From positions 1 to 64,000 of the forward strand of contig JAFAZE010000121.1 of NCBI GenBank assembly GCA_019239975.1: a stretch of 64,000 bases of DNA. Direction: 5' to 3'. The stretch is from Streptosporangiaceae bacterium. Its GTDB lineage: Bacteria > Actinomycetota > Actinomycetes > Streptosporangiales > Streptosporangiaceae. Below the pieces are notes generated by a model. It did not search any database and had not been told where the DNA came from. It saw nothing but the letters and a program-made list of their open reading frames with translations. Position 1 is the first letter of the stretch, and every line of letters begins with the position of its first letter. Shown piece after piece: positions 11,427 to 38,033 of the stretch. A program made the translations under genes and the position numbers.

Positions 11427-11474
11427 ATTTGTCTGCGGTAACTGTCGCTATGGCAGCAATTACCGCAGACAAAT
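11427..11474. terminator. Bidirectional hairpin terminator between EamA and birA genes
   Basis: Perfect 15-bp inverted repeat: atttgtctgcggtaa (11427-11441) and its complement (11460-11474), with an 18-base loop that can itself pair (ctgtc with ggcag). The last base is part of the birA stop codon. The position between two convergent genes and the symmetric AT ends fit termination in both directions. Confidence 0.85.
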
Positions 11475-12313
11475 CATGACTGACGCAGGTGAACGACGTC
11501 GCCGGCGGCGACGGGGATTGGCGATTGGGCCGGGCCGCGCACGAGTAGGCGCCCGTCGGTGTCCACGCCTTCGGCGACGCCGGCGAGCAGGCCGCCGGCG
11601 GGCAGTTCCACCCGGACGGCGCGGCCGAGCGTTTCGCACAGGCGAGCGTATTCGGCGCGCAGGCCGTTGCGTTCGGGGTCAGGGTCCGCGCGGAACGCGG
11701 CGTACCAGCGCTCCAGGCCGGTGAGCACCTCGATGAGCAGCGGCTCCCGCGCCGCGCTCGCCGCTCCCTCGATCGAGAGCGACGTGGGACGCAGCGCGCC
11801 GGGTCCGGGCGGTGGCAGCTCCTCAGGTGCCGTGGACACGTTGATGCCGATGCCGGCCACGACGGCGCCGCCCGACTGCTCGGCCAGGATCCCGGCGAGC
11901 TTGCGGTCGCCGATCAGCACGTCGTTGGGCCATTTCAGGCGTGCGCGCAGCCCGGTCACCGTCTCCACCGCCGTCGCGACCGCCACGCCGGCCAGCAGCG
12001 GCAGCCAGCCCAGCCGGCTCGGCGGGACGGCGCCGCCGGGGCGCAGCAGCACCGAGAACGTGAGCGCAGCCCTCGGCGGGCTCACCCAGGTACGTCCCAT
12101 CCTGCCCCGCCCGGCGGTCTGCTCCTCGGCGACGAGCACGGCTCCCTCGGGTGCCGCGCCGTCGCGCGCGAGCTCCAGCAGGGCGGTGTTCGTGGACCCG
12201 GTCCTGGCGATGACCTTGATGCCGGCCCACAGCCCGCCGGGCTTGACCACCGCGTCGTTCACCAGTCCGGCCGCAAGCGGGCGCCGCGCGCCCCCGGCGT
12301 CCTCAGCAGTCAC
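11474..12313 (-). CDS. birA: Biotin--[acetyl-CoA-carboxylase] ligase
   Basis: 279 residues from GTG 12313, preferred because homologues begin shortly before the PGGLW segment; an in-frame ATG at 12373 would add 20 residues. It activates biotin to biotinyl-AMP and attaches it to carboxylase carrier domains. Visible motifs are RTGSTN, the adenylate loop GRGRMGRTW at about 68-76, LKWPNDVLIGDRKLAGIL and GIGINV. There is no N-terminal HTH, so it is a monofunctional ligase, not a repressor. It serves the acyl-CoA carboxylases whose subunits lie on both sides. The gene order PH-birA-carboxylase matches mycobacteria. Confidence 0.93.
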   Translation of the reverse strand: MTAEDAGGARRPLAAGLVNDAVVKPGGLWAGIKVIARTGSTNTALLELARDGAAPEGAVLVAEEQTAGRGRMGRTWVSPPRAALTFSVLLRPGGAVPPSRLGWLPLLAGVAVATAVETVTGLRARLKWPNDVLIGDRKLAGILAEQSGGAVVAGIGINVSTAPEELPPPGPGALRPTSLSIEGAASAAREPLLIEVLTGLERWYAAFRADPDPERNGLRAEYARLCETLGRAVRVELPAGGLLAGVAEGVDTDGRLLVRGPAQSPIPVAAGDVVHLRQS

Positions 12314-12384
12314 TCGTTTACCAATTAAATCGCTGGCACGCTTAGTCACACTGGTACCGGACCACATCAGCACCGTCAGTCACA

Positions 12385-12472
12385 TCAGCACCGCACTTCG
12401 TGATCGCGGAAACGAAGGTGTCGTATTCGGCCCGCCGTTTCCGCGATCATGGTGGCTGTCCGTTTTGTCCGG
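12385..12472 (+). repeat. Copy 1 of an about 85-bp dispersed element with inverted repeat and short ORF
   Basis: Lies between the birA start and the AlaX gene end. It contains a perfect 14-bp inverted repeat, tgatcgcggaaacg (12401-12414) and its complement (12436-12449). In one frame from GTG 12400 it reads VIAETKVSYSARR, FRDH, then CPFCP. A second copy at 36598-36685 is about 80% identical by eye over 85 bases and encodes a matching peptide. It could be a palindromic interspersed repeat or a remnant of a small Cys-pair protein gene. Confidence 0.7.
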
Positions 12473-12512
12473 CTCGCGCGGGGACTGGGCGGCGGGTGGG
12501 TGTGGGCACGCC

Positions 12513-13232
12513 TCAGTCCTCGATGCGGATGCGGAGGCGGCGGAAGCCCTTGCCCTTGTTCTCCACCTTCACCACGGAGATGCGGCCGACCTGGGAGGTC
12601 GACGCCACGTGCGTTCCGCCGTCGGCCTGCTGGTCCAGGCCGGCGATGTCGATGATGCGGACCGTGGCCACGTCCTCCGGCACCAGGTTGGTGGCGGTCC
12701 TGATGATGTCGGGTATCCCGAACGCCTCCGCGCGCGGCAGCTCGCGGACCATGATCGGGCGCCCGGCGAGAACCTCCGCGTTGCACGCGGCCTCGACGTC
12801 CTCACGGAAGCCGGGCGGGACCGATTCCAGGTTGAAATCCATCCTCGCGGACAGCGGCTCCATGTTGCCGCCCGTCACCAGCGCGCCGAAGTCACGGAAC
12901 ACCACGCCGCACAGCACGTGCAGCCCGGAGTGCGTGCGCATCAGCGCCGTCCGCCGCTCGTCCTCGACCGCGCCGCGCACCGTGGTGCCGGCCGGGGGCA
13001 GCGGGCCGTCTTCGGCGGGCACCAGGTACAGATCGTCGCCCTTGCGGGCGTCCACGATCCGGGTCTGCACGCCGCCCCACAGCAGCACGCCGTGGTCCGG
13101 CGGCTGGCCGCCCCCGCCCGGGTAGAAGGCGGATCTGTCCAGCACTATCCCCTCGGGGCCGGAGGAGAGGACCACGGCGTCCCACTCGCGCAGCGTCTGG
13201 TCGTCCAGCTCCAGCCGGTGTGTCTTGCTCAC
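12513..13232 (-). CDS. AlaX-type alanyl-tRNA editing protein
   Basis: 239 residues homologous to the editing half of alanyl-tRNA synthetase. It probably deacylates mischarged Ser- or Gly-tRNA(Ala) in trans. Motifs are the N-terminal AFYPGGGGQPPDHG, the zinc-site THSGLHVL (His-x-x-x-His) and the second site DGGTHVAST. In AlaRS the residue before GGTHV is Cys (CGGTHV); here it is Asp, so one zinc ligand differs. It is encoded 10 bases upstream of nothing else on this strand but directly behind the MFS exporter gene (10-base gap), so the two are probably co-transcribed. Confidence 0.85.
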   Translation of the reverse strand: MSKTHRLELDDQTLREWDAVVLSSGPEGIVLDRSAFYPGGGGQPPDHGVLLWGGVQTRIVDARKGDDLYLVPAEDGPLPPAGTTVRGAVEDERRTALMRTHSGLHVLCGVVFRDFGALVTGGNMEPLSARMDFNLESVPPGFREDVEAACNAEVLAGRPIMVRELPRAEAFGIPDIIRTATNLVPEDVATVRIIDIAGLDQQADGGTHVASTSQVGRISVVKVENKGKGFRRLRIRIED

Positions 13233-23548: not shown

Positions 23549-24154
23549 TCATGAAGCGCCGAGAAGCCATGCAACGTCACGGCAGAATTTGTCGAACGAC
23601 GGAGAGTTGTCCCGGGCTGTCGTTACATCCAAGACCGAGACGAGCGGCGCCTGATCTACGGTCGGACTATAAGGGTGGCCGTCGGTTCTTGCCCTGCTGA
23701 GTTGACCTTTGGCGTCGCGGACGGCCTCCGGGTCTCCGGGAAACGTGAACCCCGGCGGCAGCCCCTGGTAGCCCGCTATGGACGACGCCGCAGCCAAGAG
23801 CCACGCCTCGAACTCCTTCTTCGCCAAAACGACCGAAACCCGCTTGTCTGGACGCGCTTCGCAAGCGCGGGCGAGCAGTTGCGGCCCCAGTTCAGCAGGA
23901 CAGGAGTCGTCGGCGTCGACCAAGACGAGAACGCCGCCCGTACCAGTTATCTCGCTTGCCTTGGCCTCCACAGCGTTCTCAATGCCACCGGGAGCGACCA
24001 GCTTTGACCTAGGTCTACGCATGGGCGGTTTGGGTGTGATAAGAGGAGTACCGAATTCCGACGCGATACGATGCAAAAGCTTTGGAAGAGCGTATACCTC
24101 ACCATGGCCCTCGACGACGGACGCGATCACCGCAGGGGTCCAAGCGCTGCTCAT
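23549..24154 (-). CDS. DUF4276 protein (TOPRIM-like), second gene of ATPase cassette
   Basis: 201 residues. The N-terminus SVVEGHGEV (Glu15, Glu19) and LVLVDADDSC (Asp80, Asp82) give the spacing of a TOPRIM-type metal site, and a third conserved segment is KKEFEAWLLAA (about 112-122). Family members are predicted nucleases or nucleotidyl-handling enzymes, unproven. It lies 27 bases downstream of the ATPase gene on the same strand and is lower in GC than its neighbours. By analogy with ATPase/TOPRIM defence pairs it is probably the effector held in check by the ATPase. That function is inferred. Confidence 0.8.
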   Translation of the reverse strand: MSSAWTPAVIASVVEGHGEVYALPKLLHRIASEFGTPLITPKPPMRRPRSKLVAPGGIENAVEAKASEITGTGGVLVLVDADDSCPAELGPQLLARACEARPDKRVSVVLAKKEFEAWLLAAASSIAGYQGLPPGFTFPGDPEAVRDAKGQLSRARTDGHPYSPTVDQAPLVSVLDVTTARDNSPSFDKFCRDVAWLLGAS

Positions 24155-24181
24155 GTTTCTTCCGGAAGGCGAAGCGGCCGT

Positions 24182-25414
24182 CTAGGCCGTCTTGGGAACA
24201 AGTTGGTTGCCGCGCATCAACTCGCCGAGTGTGTAGAGCTTCTTCTCGGCGATATCGCGACTCGCGTCGTCGACTTCTCCGATAACTGTCAGGCCATCAC
24301 GCATGGTCACTGGGCGAATCGTAGAAATGTCAAGGTCTTCGCGGTCAAGCAGATCCGCACTCTGGCTAGTCGCGATCACCTGGACGTATTTGCTGGCCTC
24401 GGTGAGGGCATCGAAAAGAGCGCCCGCTGCGGCCGGATGTAGTGCAATCTCCGGCTCTTCAATAGCGACAAGCGAGATTCGCCCGTCGCGCGCCGCAGGC
24501 TGAAAGAGTGCAGCGAGTACCGCTGCGGCACGAAGCGTTCCATCGGACATGGCATCCGGCCCGAAGTCGACACCCCTGCCACCTATGCCGGTCCCTGACC
24601 GGATCATGACCGTTACACGCGATCCCGCAAACCAGCGGTAAATGCCTATCGCACCCGGCACGATTGCCCGGAGGTAAGCGTCGAGCCGGTCCTTGAATCC
24701 GGCATCCTCACCTTCGAGTGATCCCACAACGTCACCAAGGTACTCACCCTTGGCGCCGAGAACGGCCCGGCCCAGCTGACGCTGTGGCTGCCTCAGCTCG
24801 TCGAGAGCGAAGTTGTAGAAATGCATCGCACGCAAGCCGTCAAATAGCAATCGCTCGAAGCTCTTACGAGCGCCGGCGAGCGGGAGATATAGCCTGTCTG
24901 AGCCGATATCATCCGGTTCGATCAGCTCCCCGAATATCCCCGGCGTCTCGCCATGCACGACCCCACGCTCAACCCGGAAGCCTTCCGTGTCATTCCGCAA
25001 ACGCAGACTGCACCTCTCGCGAATAACCTCGAATTCGCGTTCGCTGAGTCGCCCGCGGCCGATCTCGATCTCATAGCTTCCGGTTACACGAGGGTAGGGC
25101 TCAGCCCCTAGCGGCACGGCAACTTCCAGCTCGATGCTGAACGAATCCATTGGGCCGGGTACGCGGCACACGATCTCGGCCACCCCGCCGCGCTCATTTA
25201 TAGCCTCGCTGGGGGTCGTTTCAAGCGCCCTTGCGACGAAGGCCAGTGCATCGAGAAAGTTGCTCTTGCCGGATCCGTTCGGCCCGACCAGGATGGTTAG
25301 GGGGCCAAGACTCACATCACATGCGGCGATGCTCTTGTAGTTCTTTAGGCGCACGCGAGTGATGAATGGCACCGCGCGGGCAGAGGTGTCGTCCTCGGCC
25401 TCGGGCTGAGTCAT
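24182..25414 (-). CDS. AAA_21/ABC-type ATPase, first gene of DUF4276 cassette
   Basis: 410 residues, SMC/RecF-like ATPase without a coiled coil. It starts with VRLKNYKSIAACDVSLGPLT, then Walker A GPNGSGKS at 44-51, a signature-like MSDGTLRA at about 289-296, Walker B ISLVAIEEPE at about 313-322 and the H-loop-region IATSQS. This is the AAA_15/AAA_21 architecture seen in OLD, AbiL and PARIS systems. Its ATG follows the gatB stop codon after one base, so it is read from the gatCAB transcript. One hand-counted line is 57% GC against 73% in gatB, suggesting acquisition by transfer. Confidence 0.88.
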   Translation of the reverse strand: MTQPEAEDDTSARAVPFITRVRLKNYKSIAACDVSLGPLTILVGPNGSGKSNFLDALAFVARALETTPSEAINERGGVAEIVCRVPGPMDSFSIELEVAVPLGAEPYPRVTGSYEIEIGRGRLSEREFEVIRERCSLRLRNDTEGFRVERGVVHGETPGIFGELIEPDDIGSDRLYLPLAGARKSFERLLFDGLRAMHFYNFALDELRQPQRQLGRAVLGAKGEYLGDVVGSLEGEDAGFKDRLDAYLRAIVPGAIGIYRWFAGSRVTVMIRSGTGIGGRGVDFGPDAMSDGTLRAAAVLAALFQPAARDGRISLVAIEEPEIALHPAAAGALFDALTEASKYVQVIATSQSADLLDREDLDISTIRPVTMRDGLTVIGEVDDASRDIAEKKLYTLGELMRGNQLVPKTA

Positions 25415-35111: not shown

Positions 35112-36425
35112 GTGCTCCAGTACCGCATGTTCCGCTGGTATTTCGCCGGCAGCGTGCTGTCCAATACGGGTACCTGGCTGCAGAACACAGCGCAGGTTCT
35201 GCTCATATACCGTCTAACGCATTCGGTCATGGCGGTCGGCCTGGTGACGTCGGCGCAGTTCTCCAGCCCGCTGTTCGTGGGACCACTGGCGGGAATGCTC
35301 ACCGAGCGCAAGGGCTACTACCGCGTCCTTATCAGCACTCAGTCACTTTCCGCCGCTATCGCAGCCGCCATGGCCGGCCTGGAGTTCTCCGGCGTACTCG
35401 GCGAGGAGATGCTGATCGGCGGCGCGCTGCTCATCGGCATCCTCTACACGCTCAGCGTGCCCGCGCTTTCATCCATGGTGCCGGCGCTGGTGCCGGAGCA
35501 TGAGACGAAGGCCGCCATGGCCCTGAACGTGGTCTCGTACAATCTGGGCCGTGCCCTGGCCCCGGCAATCGGCGTGGTCATGGTCTTCACGGTCGGATTC
35601 GGCTGGGCGTTCACGCTCAACGCGGCCTCGTTCGTGATCCTGGTGGCAGCGATCGCACTCATACGGCATCGAAACCCGGATACCGGCCCGGCGGCGAAGG
35701 CCACCCCGCGGTCGGGGGTGCTTGATGGGTTCCGCGTCAGCCGGGATGAGCCCAGGATTCTGGCACTGCTCGCCATAGTTGCCGCGGTGACCATAGCGGC
35801 CGACCCGATCCTGGTGCTCGGCCCGGCAGTCGGGCGGCACCTGGCGGGCACGCCGAACGCCTCCGCGTATTTCATCTCGGCGATGGGGGCCGGGTACATA
35901 GTCGGCTCATTGGTGCCGACAGGGAAGCCGTCCTTCCGGCAGACCGCGGTGTTCCTCTGGCTGTTGTGTGCCGGCATCCTCCTGTTCGCCTTCGGCCCCA
36001 CGATGGCTGTCAGCCTTGCCGGCGCGCTCACCGTCGGCATCGCGAGCCTGCTCGAGGGCGCCGCGACACAGGCGCTGCTGATCTCCCTCGCGGGTCCCAG
36101 CCGAGTGCCCATAACCATGGCCATCTGGATGATCGCCTGGGCGGGCAGCAAGCCGATCGCTTCACTTGCCGACGGTTACCTCGCGACCGTCCAGGGCGTG
36201 CGAACGGCGGCTGTCGTGCTGATCCTTCCCGTCCTGCTCCTGTCGCTCGGTGCCCGTTTCTGCCCGATGCGAATCCGGGAACGGACATGGCCAGGTCACG
36301 CCTCCGGGCGGCTGACGCTGTCCATACCCACGTCCCGGTTAATGCCACGGATCCGGACGCGGGCAGGCGCGAAAACGCTTCGTGAACCAGACAAATGTTT
36401 GACCATGGCGCTAAATAGGTCATAA
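35112..36425 (+). CDS. MFS exporter (MFS_3/EntS-like)
   Basis: 437 residues from GTG 35112, chosen because gaggg lies 9 bases upstream and the first span begins a few residues later (YRMFRWYFAGSVLSNTGTWLQ). Twelve spans are expected; TQALLISLAGPSRVP and PLAGMLTERKGYYRVL are typical cytosolic loops of the EntS-like group that exports siderophores or drugs. The C-terminus has a basic extension of about 50 residues. The substrate is unknown. It probably belongs to the GntR regulon upstream. It lies in the lower-GC accessory segment that splits mnmA from the ligA block. Confidence 0.85.
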   Translation: MLQYRMFRWYFAGSVLSNTGTWLQNTAQVLLIYRLTHSVMAVGLVTSAQFSSPLFVGPLAGMLTERKGYYRVLISTQSLSAAIAAAMAGLEFSGVLGEEMLIGGALLIGILYTLSVPALSSMVPALVPEHETKAAMALNVVSYNLGRALAPAIGVVMVFTVGFGWAFTLNAASFVILVAAIALIRHRNPDTGPAAKATPRSGVLDGFRVSRDEPRILALLAIVAAVTIAADPILVLGPAVGRHLAGTPNASAYFISAMGAGYIVGSLVPTGKPSFRQTAVFLWLLCAGILLFAFGPTMAVSLAGALTVGIASLLEGAATQALLISLAGPSRVPITMAIWMIAWAGSKPIASLADGYLATVQGVRTAAVVLILPVLLLSLGARFCPMRIRERTWPGHASGRLTLSIPTSRLMPRIRTRAGAKTLREPDKCLTMALNRS

Positions 36426-36535: not shown

Positions 36536-37036
36536 ATGGCCAAGCGCCACGTTCGCCCGTCCCTTCAGTACCGTTACGAGCACTACGACCCCCGTGTGTT
36601 AGCACCACACTCCATGATCGCGGAATCGTGGGTGCCGTATTCGGCCCGCCGTTACCACGATCATGACGACTGCCCCTTATGCCCGGTTATCAGGAGGCTG
36701 GGTGGGGGGCGCTGGCGCCTTCGGGAACAGGGCGAACGGGACAATTCGCCGCCGCGATGGCGCGGCGCGTCCCGCGCGGCCGCCGGAGCACGACACACGC
36801 CGGCCGTGACCATCCCGAGATGTGGCCCAGAGCCCAACGGAGCTGTCGGACATTCCGGTGTGGCCAGGGCCCATGCTGGCGAAAAGGCATTGTTCGAGCG
36901 GCGCACCAGGCCGGGCGGCGGTTACCAGGTGCTCCTCAGGGAGCGGCAGGCAGACGGGCCGTCGGGGACGTGCCGGCGATGGTTCCGCTGCCGAGTACGC
37001 GGCGGCCATCGTAGAGCACCGCTGCCTGGCCCTTAG
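36536..37036 (+). CDS. Small Cys-pair ORF with strong ribosome binding site (uncertain 3' end)
   Basis: ATG 36536 follows an almost perfect aggaggtg, which argues for real translation. The first 50 residues ([20 protein letters not shown], then [20 protein letters not shown] and CPLCP) include the peptide shared with the element at 12385. Beyond CPLCP the frame stays open for about 115 low-complexity Arg/Gly residues and overlaps the convergent mnmA end by about 100 bases, so a frameshift or decay after about residue 55 is likely. A Cys-x-x-Cys-type metal site is possible (CPLCP). Function is unknown. Confidence 0.4.
36598..36685 (+). repeat. Copy 2 of the about 85-bp dispersed element
   Basis: Matches 12385-12472 at about 80% by eye, including agcaccrcact, tgatcgcggaa, cgtattcggcccgccgtt and cgatcatg. 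The inverted repeat that is perfect in copy 1 is imperfect here (36614-36628 with 36650-36664, three mismatches). Both copies precede the 3' end of a minus-strand tRNA-related gene. Confidence 0.7.
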
Positions 37037-38033
37037 CGACGCCGCGCGCTGGTGCGCGCAGGCGGATGTGCAGCACCCCGCCGTCCAGCCAGGCCGTGCA
37101 CGCGTGCACCTCGCCGTGCGCGCGCAGCTGCACCGCGCAGTCCAGGGGCCGCTCCGGAGGCGGGCACCCGGTCCACACCGGGCGCCGCGCGGTGATCTGG
37201 GTCACGTCGAGTTCCCCGGCGGGCCCGACGGTCACCGTCCTGGTCACCGGCTCGATGTCCAGCACGTACCGCGGCTTGCCGTCCGCCGCCGGGCGTCCCA
37301 CCCGCAGGCCCCTGCGCTGCCCGACGGTGAAGCCGTAGGTCCCGTCGTGCTCGCCGATGACGGTCCCGTCCGCGTCAACGATCGTTCCCGGGGCGGGGCC
37401 GAGCCGGCGGGCGAGGAATCCACGGGTGTCGCCGTCGGCGATGAAGCAGACGTCGTGGCTGTCGGGCTTGCCGGCGACCGCCAGCCCGCGCCGCGCCGCC
37501 TCGGCGCGCACCTGCTCCTTCGGCGTGCCGCCGAGCGGGAACATCGCGCGGGAGAGCTGGCGCGGCGTCAGCACCGCGAGCACGTAGGACTGGTCCTTGC
37601 CGCTGTCGGCCGCCCGGTGCAGCACGCCGTCCTCGACGCTCGCGTAATGACCCGTGCAGACCGCGTCGAAGCCGAGCGCGAGGGCGCGGTCCAGGACCGC
37701 CGCGAACTTGATCTTCTCGTTGCAGCGCAGGCACGGGTTGGGCGTACGGCCCGCCGCGTACTCGGCGACGAAGTCGTCGACCACGTCCTGCCGGAAGCGT
37801 TCGGCCATGTCCCAGACGTAGAACGGGATGCCGATCACGTCCGCGGCGCGGCGCGCGTCCCGCGCGTCCTCGAGCGTGCAGCAGCCCCGCGCCCCCGTGC
37901 GGAACGACTTCGGGTTCTCGGACAGCGCGAGGTGAACGCCGGTCACGTCGTGGCCGGCGTCGGCGGCACGCGCCGCGGCCGTGGCGGAATCCACGCCGCC
38001 GGACATGGCGGCGAGCACGCGTAGGGCAGTCAT
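36936..38033 (-). CDS. mnmA: tRNA-specific 2-thiouridylase
   Basis: 365 residues from ATG 38033. It thiolates U34 of Lys, Glu and Gln tRNAs. The PP-loop [13 protein letters not shown] binds ATP. The catalytic Cys pair lies in [13 protein letters not shown] and [27 protein letters not shown] and a C-terminal beta domain complete the fold. The sulfur comes from the cysteine desulfurase encoded 40 bases upstream, the standard actinobacterial pairing. Its downstream conserved neighbour (methionine-synthase-like gene, then ligA) is displaced here by about 5 kb of accessory genes. Confidence 0.96.

Follow-up and report, generated by a model that had tools for sequence, protein, structure and literature searches.

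Intergenic 53-bp palindromes of a Streptosporangiaceae bacterium as probable landing sites of an ISAzo13-family insertion sequence

Introduction

Six insertion sequences (IS) of Pseudomonas and Sinorhizobium have been described in type-1 REP/IS associations, in which the IS is located at one fixed position of the REP (Tobes and Pareja 2006, PMC1525189). ISPsy8 generates direct repeats of 3 bp where the hairpin has its symmetry axis, and the insertion point of ISRm22 is the palindromy axis of the target (PMC1525189). The GTAG- and CGTC-tagged REP and the REPIN/RAYT systems (PMC3733652, PMC3116915) are, like the element presented here, short imperfect palindromes of high copy number, which are extragenic, lineage-specific and sometimes arranged in small arrays. 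No link of the ISAzo13 family to palindromic targets was found in the papers searched. The relation between an IS and a palindrome is itself known in Proteobacteria; new in the present case are the host phylum, the IS family, the palindrome family and the absence of a RAYT.

The window studied here is a stretch of 64,000 nucleotides of contig JAFAZE010000121.1 from a Streptosporangiaceae bacterium (GCA_019239975.1), the genome of which is a 6.41 Mb draft in 176 contigs with a completeness of 93%. An earlier note, made from the window alone, had reported two copies of a dispersed element and suspected selection on an encoded peptide as well as on structure.

Results

Palindromic element of the window and its genomic copies

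The two copies of the window are located at 12381–12473 and 36595–36687 on the plus strand. Their identity, estimated by eye at about 80%, was determined to be 76% over the aligned region (71 of 93 positions) and 81% in a local match of 86 bp. The perfect inverted repeat ascribed to copy 1 was confirmed and comprises 14 bp, with the left arm at 12401–12414 and the right arm at 12436–12449 (plus strand), and the corresponding repeat of copy 2 spans 16 bp with 81% complementarity. The element proper consists of an imperfect palindrome of 53 bp, CATGATC-N39-GATCATG, with the consensus CATGATC..GGAA..GGTGYCG-YAT-NCGRCCC..TTTCC..GATCATG; the ends CATGATC and GATCATG are present in most copies. In copy 1, this core (CGTGATC ... 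GATCATG) occupies 12399–12451 of the plus strand according to two alignments, a PWM scan and a match of the 53-column model, and in copy 2 it was placed at 36613–36665 of the same strand by the inverted repeat and the alignments. The dyad axis is TAT in both copies (12424–12426 and 36638–36640, plus strand) and is empty in both, and IS junctions elsewhere in the genome place the insertion point of 13 occupied copies at the homologous 3 bp.

The 93-bp region was delimited by alignment and includes side modules, AGCACC on the left and TGTCCGTTTTGTCC on the right, that are common to about 40 copies. A subset of copies, including copy 2, is homologous over up to about 350 bp, and other copies have only the 53-bp palindrome in common. 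In the case of copy 2, the homology of this longer subfamily (85–89% to L009, L012 and L015) was followed on the plus strand from 36601 to about 36835.

The description of the element as dispersed was borne out, its recurrence being far beyond chance, and the reservation that only the two copies of the window might exist no longer holds. A query of the genome with copy 1 resulted in 40 scored copies, with E-values down to 3e-29 for the other copies, and a covariance model search detected more copies than this query. A degenerate pattern of the core (left arm and centre) gave 127 matches in the genome versus none for the reversed control. The alignment was built from 105 different empty copies, and 13 more are interrupted by an IS; these counts are lower bounds from targeted searches, in which arrays of degenerate units were counted in part. 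The mean pairwise identity of the 105 empty copies is 71% over the core, with no two copies being identical.

The intergenic space of the genome is a mosaic of repeats. At L155, L161, L168, L172 and L152, tandem versions of the palindrome occur, repeated about every 63 bp, in which the inner junctions are TTTCCACGACGC...GCGTGGTGGAAAC and the outer ends stay CATGATC/GATCATG. Further intergenic repeat modules, namely the tandem unit CAGCGGCCCCACTGGGCGGGGCCAAATGCGC of 31 bp and a module of the form GTTACCATCCCGAGAT...GCCAGAACC, adjoin the palindromes at L189, L176, L147, L157 and L182. At L132, L137, L138, L169 and L174, the GGACAAAACGGGC module lies to the left and not to the right of the directional centre, a sign that inversion or exchange between copies may have affected either the centre or the flanks. 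At one locus (L016:1153-1211), a second palindrome, reversed and diverged, lies at a distance of about 350 bp from the first.

Gene context of the copies

On the left, copy 1 is neighboured by the gene of a biotin–protein ligase, BirA (11474–12313, minus strand; TIGR00121, 2e-44, and the gene caller), with its 5' end towards the element, and on the right by that of an AlaX-like alanyl-tRNA editing protein (12513–13232, minus strand; NF040865, 6e-65, which is below the cut-off of that model), with its 3' end towards the element. Both neighbours of copy 2 have their 3' ends towards the element: on the left an MFS transporter (35112–36425, plus strand; PF05977, 4e-31, and PF07690) and on the right the tRNA 2-thiouridine synthase MnmA (36936–38018, minus strand; NF001138, 1e-120). 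Elsewhere in the window, two adjacent genes at 23549–25414 (minus strand) are atypical in codon usage, with a GC3 of 0.66–0.68 compared with 0.89 for birA; they encode an ATPase of the AAA_21/OLD-like type (PF13304, 1e-25) and a protein with DUF4276 (PF14103, 2e-14), a pair that looks like an acquired defence system of the ATPase-nuclease type.

In the whole set, 94 of the 105 copies had no overlap with a called gene, as determined with a home-made gene caller that is based on codon usage and was trained on the window. For the 74 copies with both neighbours called, the flanking genes were convergent in 28, on one strand in 36 and divergent in 10 cases. The intergenic length of the window itself is mostly convergent and the convergent share of the copies is close to it; the convergent placement is therefore no strong bias.

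Insertion sequence at the dyad axis

Several pattern matches were located less than 200 bp from contig ends, and their sequence switched exactly at the centre of the element. The foreign part is an IS of 1788 bp, as joined from two contigs, with the ends GGACGCGTC... and ...GACGCGCCC; it was located at L121:2-1576, at L108 and at 26 contig ends. The transposase belongs to the ISAzo13 family, with scores far above the curated cut-offs of NF033519 (2.5e-154; 514 bits versus 200) and PF07592 (451 versus 26.9). The terminal repeats of the IS are imperfect (GGRCGCGTC...) and unrelated to the half-sites of the palindrome.

Thirteen IS copies are present, since the 3' end and the 5' end were each found 13 times. 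All 26 ends abut the element at columns 44–46, which is the dyad axis, so that 100% of the IS copies are at the same position of the palindrome. The 3' end is joined to a left half eight times and to a right half five times, and the 5' end to a left half five times and to a right half eight times. This tally corresponds to 13 insertions, eight in one orientation and five in the other, and the broken halves together rebuild the full element, with totals per end that fit 8 + 5. The left halves all retain columns 44–46 and the right halves all begin there, which points to a 3-bp target duplication centred on the axis (TAT, CAT, CAG, CCT and others), as read from complementary halves on different contigs, the two ends of one IS copy never being on one contig. 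For 13 random insertions in 6.4 Mb, the probability of all hitting one of the 118 axis positions is about 1e-61. The targets of relatives of this IS (48–56% identical) appear to be short CTNAG-like sites, and the ISAzo13 family does not appear to need a long palindrome in general.

The reading frame of the transposase has no stop inside the IS and runs on into the half-site of the target. When it faces the left half, the read-through tail ends after 13 residues in five of the eight insertions; when it faces the right half, the tail is YSARRFRDH... or similar and 25 to 85 residues long, so that the target-encoded tails range from 13 to 85 residues overall. In the relatives with 48–56% identity, the stop is mostly inside the IS; the stop-less frame is therefore particular to the present IS, which may have lost its stop.

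It is probable that the REP-like intergenic palindrome is the exclusive and symmetric landing site of the resident ISAzo13-family IS. The subunits of the transposase, or those of a host protein that recruits it, would recognise both half-sites of the dyad in double-stranded DNA, and the DNA would be cut with a stagger of 3 nt across the axis. Due to the near symmetry of the site, the IS would enter in either orientation, and the insertion would be harmless because the copies are located between genes. The transposase gene, having no stop of its own, runs on into the half-site in the frame that the earlier note had taken for a peptide. Mobilisation of the palindromes by a RAYT was considered and rejected: the Y1 transposase model (PF01797) had no match in the genome, with the draft being 93% complete and the control positive in 10 of 14 genomes.

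Conservation of the dyad and its occurrence in other genomes

The positions GG (28–29), G38, G40, G49, CC (51–52) and C61 were invariant in 105 of 105 copies, both arms being alike in this respect, and the degenerate positions of the two half-sites vary independently. From half-sites that vary independently round common invariant positions, we infer a DNA dyad for two protein subunits.

Outside the host, BLAST with the element revealed it in none of 40 relatives, and the pattern search of 299 genomes of the same family remained at the background level. The 53-column model gave single matches in two others of the 347 genomes of the order. One scan of GTDB r220 gave none and another 12 scattered single matches, and two matches were detected in virus contigs. 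No palindrome of the CATGATC type was found in about 450 kb of other genomes or in 218 kb of the genome G187. In G051, one of the two genomes with a match of the 53-column model and a member of another genus (g50) of the same family, five 53-bp palindromes were found in 282 kb (L274:18575, L275:5849, L279:4322, L280:1062 and L281:2134), a density that is only indicative, as the contigs were partly picked by the model match. All five are intergenic, with ends identical to CATGATC/GATCATG and a centre similar to that of the window family, and their arms are GGTTGATT/AATCAACC or GGAGGATT/AATCCTCC instead of GGAAACG/CGTTTCC. The arms have changed on both sides at pairs 9 and 12–16; at pairs 9, 12, 14, 15 and 16, the two sides differ from sequence to sequence and pairing is retained in all six. 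Judged from this comparison, the genera have symmetry, length and ends in common and differ in the arm sequence. The conservation of the dyad as DNA is supported by the invariance of the same positions on both arms and by the arms of the other genus, which differ yet stay complementary.

Of the alternatives to a landing site of the IS, the most credible, although clearly the less probable explanation, is that the dyad is primarily the site of a host protein with a nucleoid, regulatory or segregation function which co-evolves with the arms, the IS being recruited secondarily. A long dyad that is degenerate yet position-specific, with independent half-sites, would suit such a protein, and so would arms that differ between genera at fixed length and ends and a density of about one copy per 54 kb. 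However, no candidate protein was found, and the copies are not enriched near promoters, as indicated by the few divergent gene pairs given above. Moreover, nearly all other searched genera have nothing like the dyad, which argues against a general component of the chromosome.

Folding and covariation of the arms

The perfect palindrome of copy 1 had been taken as a hint of selection on structure, and a structured RNA or a transcription terminator, in which the palindrome acts as a hairpin of the transcript, was accordingly considered. Copy 1 and the consensus fold well on the plus strand (z of −5.0 and −5.2), convergent genes flank many of the copies (28 of 74 with called neighbours), and the arms co-change between genera. 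These observations are outweighed by the remaining ones, and this explanation is unlikely. Copy 2 folds weakly (z of −1.6), and pairing at columns 26, 27, 32 and 34 is lost in one third to one half of the copies. Within the genome, the compensatory pairing that had been envisaged across copies was absent: the covariation of the arms in 98 copies showed no excess, the observed score being lower than the mean of the shuffled alignments, and none was detected in 39 copies or pair by pair in 105 copies. One pair, columns 41–50, looked covarying in 39 copies and failed in 105, where 12% of the shuffles reached its value. Perfect palindromes were seen in three of the 105 copies versus 3.2 expected from random pairing of half-sites, so that the perfect arms of copy 1 arise at the chance rate and do not speak for selection on structure. 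The convergent share of the copies is near that of the intergenic length of the window; a terminator-like placement was rejected, as the 3' bias is weak against this make-up. The Rfam search of the window returned no family.

Relation of the palindromes to the ends of the insertion sequence

About equally improbable is the origin of the palindromes as MITEs or excision footprints of the IS, in which case the half-sites would be outer terminal repeats and the empty copies remains. Half-sites do flank every IS copy in inverted orientation, and the empty copies are many and the full ones few. However, the IS possesses terminal repeats of its own, unlike the half-sites, and its GGRCGCGTC ends are absent from the empty copies. 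In addition, the IS is found in both orientations relative to left and right modules that are fixed and different from each other. No offset with a clear excess of flanking direct repeats, and thus no target duplication outside the palindrome, was found. In the sampled stretches of G051, palindromes are present and no ISAzo13 transposase was detected.

Coding potential of the element

Both window copies can be read as V/MIAE...YSARR...DH...CPxCP, as the earlier note had proposed. In this frame, a stop is present in 33 of the 105 copies (TAG at codon 6 in 28 of those), the frame is open in 72, a start codon is found in 83, and both a start and an open frame in 54. YSARR is encoded by 13 and CPxCP by just 21 of the 105 copies, and the proposed frame is less often open than the reverse one (81 copies). 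Most changes of the left half alter the amino acid in the proposed frame (ratio of non-synonymous to synonymous changes 2.3), and constraint on a peptide is not supported. A low value of this ratio, 0.28–0.29, was obtained for the outward frame of either half. Since the third-codon positions 29, 38, 49, 52 and 61 never vary across the copies, this low ratio is attributed to the DNA motif and not to a protein, with a contribution of the transposase tail being possible. The start and open frame are not kept and purifying selection in frame is lacking, as opposed to what is expected of a short peptide. The synonymous-looking changes in the Cys-pair part are seen between the window copies as described; their reading as a sign of a peptide did not survive, the outward frame of the right half being the one in which the transposase reads on. 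Start codons are frequent, the frame is open in many copies and the window copies differ synonymously at some sites. In view of the early TAG, the scarce motifs, the more open reverse frame and the non-synonymous excess in the left half, a gene of a short peptide (MIAE..YSARR..CPxCP) in repeated copies is nevertheless highly improbable.

Discussion

The use of intergenic palindromes as safe landing sites by IS is a rule that now also covers an actinobacterial host and the ISAzo13 family, 13 of 13 copies sharing a single base-pair position. Such a target specificity, for a dyad of about 45–53 bp, is unusual for a DDE transposase. The ISAzo13-type transposase could serve for the dissection of target choice and may prove useful in site-directed insertion. 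The lineage-specific and mutually compensated arms offer a route to proteins that read dyads and to the spread of palindromes without RAYT. More tentatively, the 53-bp CATGATC palindromes could represent an undescribed class of actinobacterial dyads, with fixed length, ends and axis and with arms rewritten by lineage, which would co-evolve with a dedicated DNA-reading protein; a transposon would use the axis as its sole address and complete its C-terminus from the target.

The attC sites of integrons may be comparable, as imperfect palindromes whose ends are conserved, whose arms are specific to a lineage and of which one side carries an additional base. The ends of the attC core sites do not seem to match CATGATC/GATCATG, and, unlike attC, the present element has no cassettes and its copies are dispersed and not in arrays. 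As in other members of the ISAzo13 family, the transposase scores above the cut-off of NF033519. Imperfect terminal repeats are seen, and the target duplication, as deduced from halves on separate contigs, would be 3 bp. In contrast to that family, the IS has an absolute specificity for a long dyad; its transposase ORF has no stop inside the IS, unlike most of the relatives that were read.

The GTAG- and CGTC-tagged REP are 20–40 bp long, whereas the present element, likewise palindromic, mostly intergenic and with more than 100 copies, is 53 bp. It carries neither a GTAG nor a CGTC tag, ending with CATGATC/GATCATG instead, and its centre is strictly conserved with one extra T; unlike the families of GTAG REP, it has no RAYT in the genome. 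From the type-1 REP/IS associations (PMC1525189), the present case differs in the actinobacterial host, the dyad of 53 bp, which does not correspond to a described REP, the IS of the ISAzo13 family and the absence of a RAYT gene. The feature that defines those associations is nevertheless shared: every copy of the IS is located at a fixed position of a high-copy extragenic palindrome (PMC1525189).
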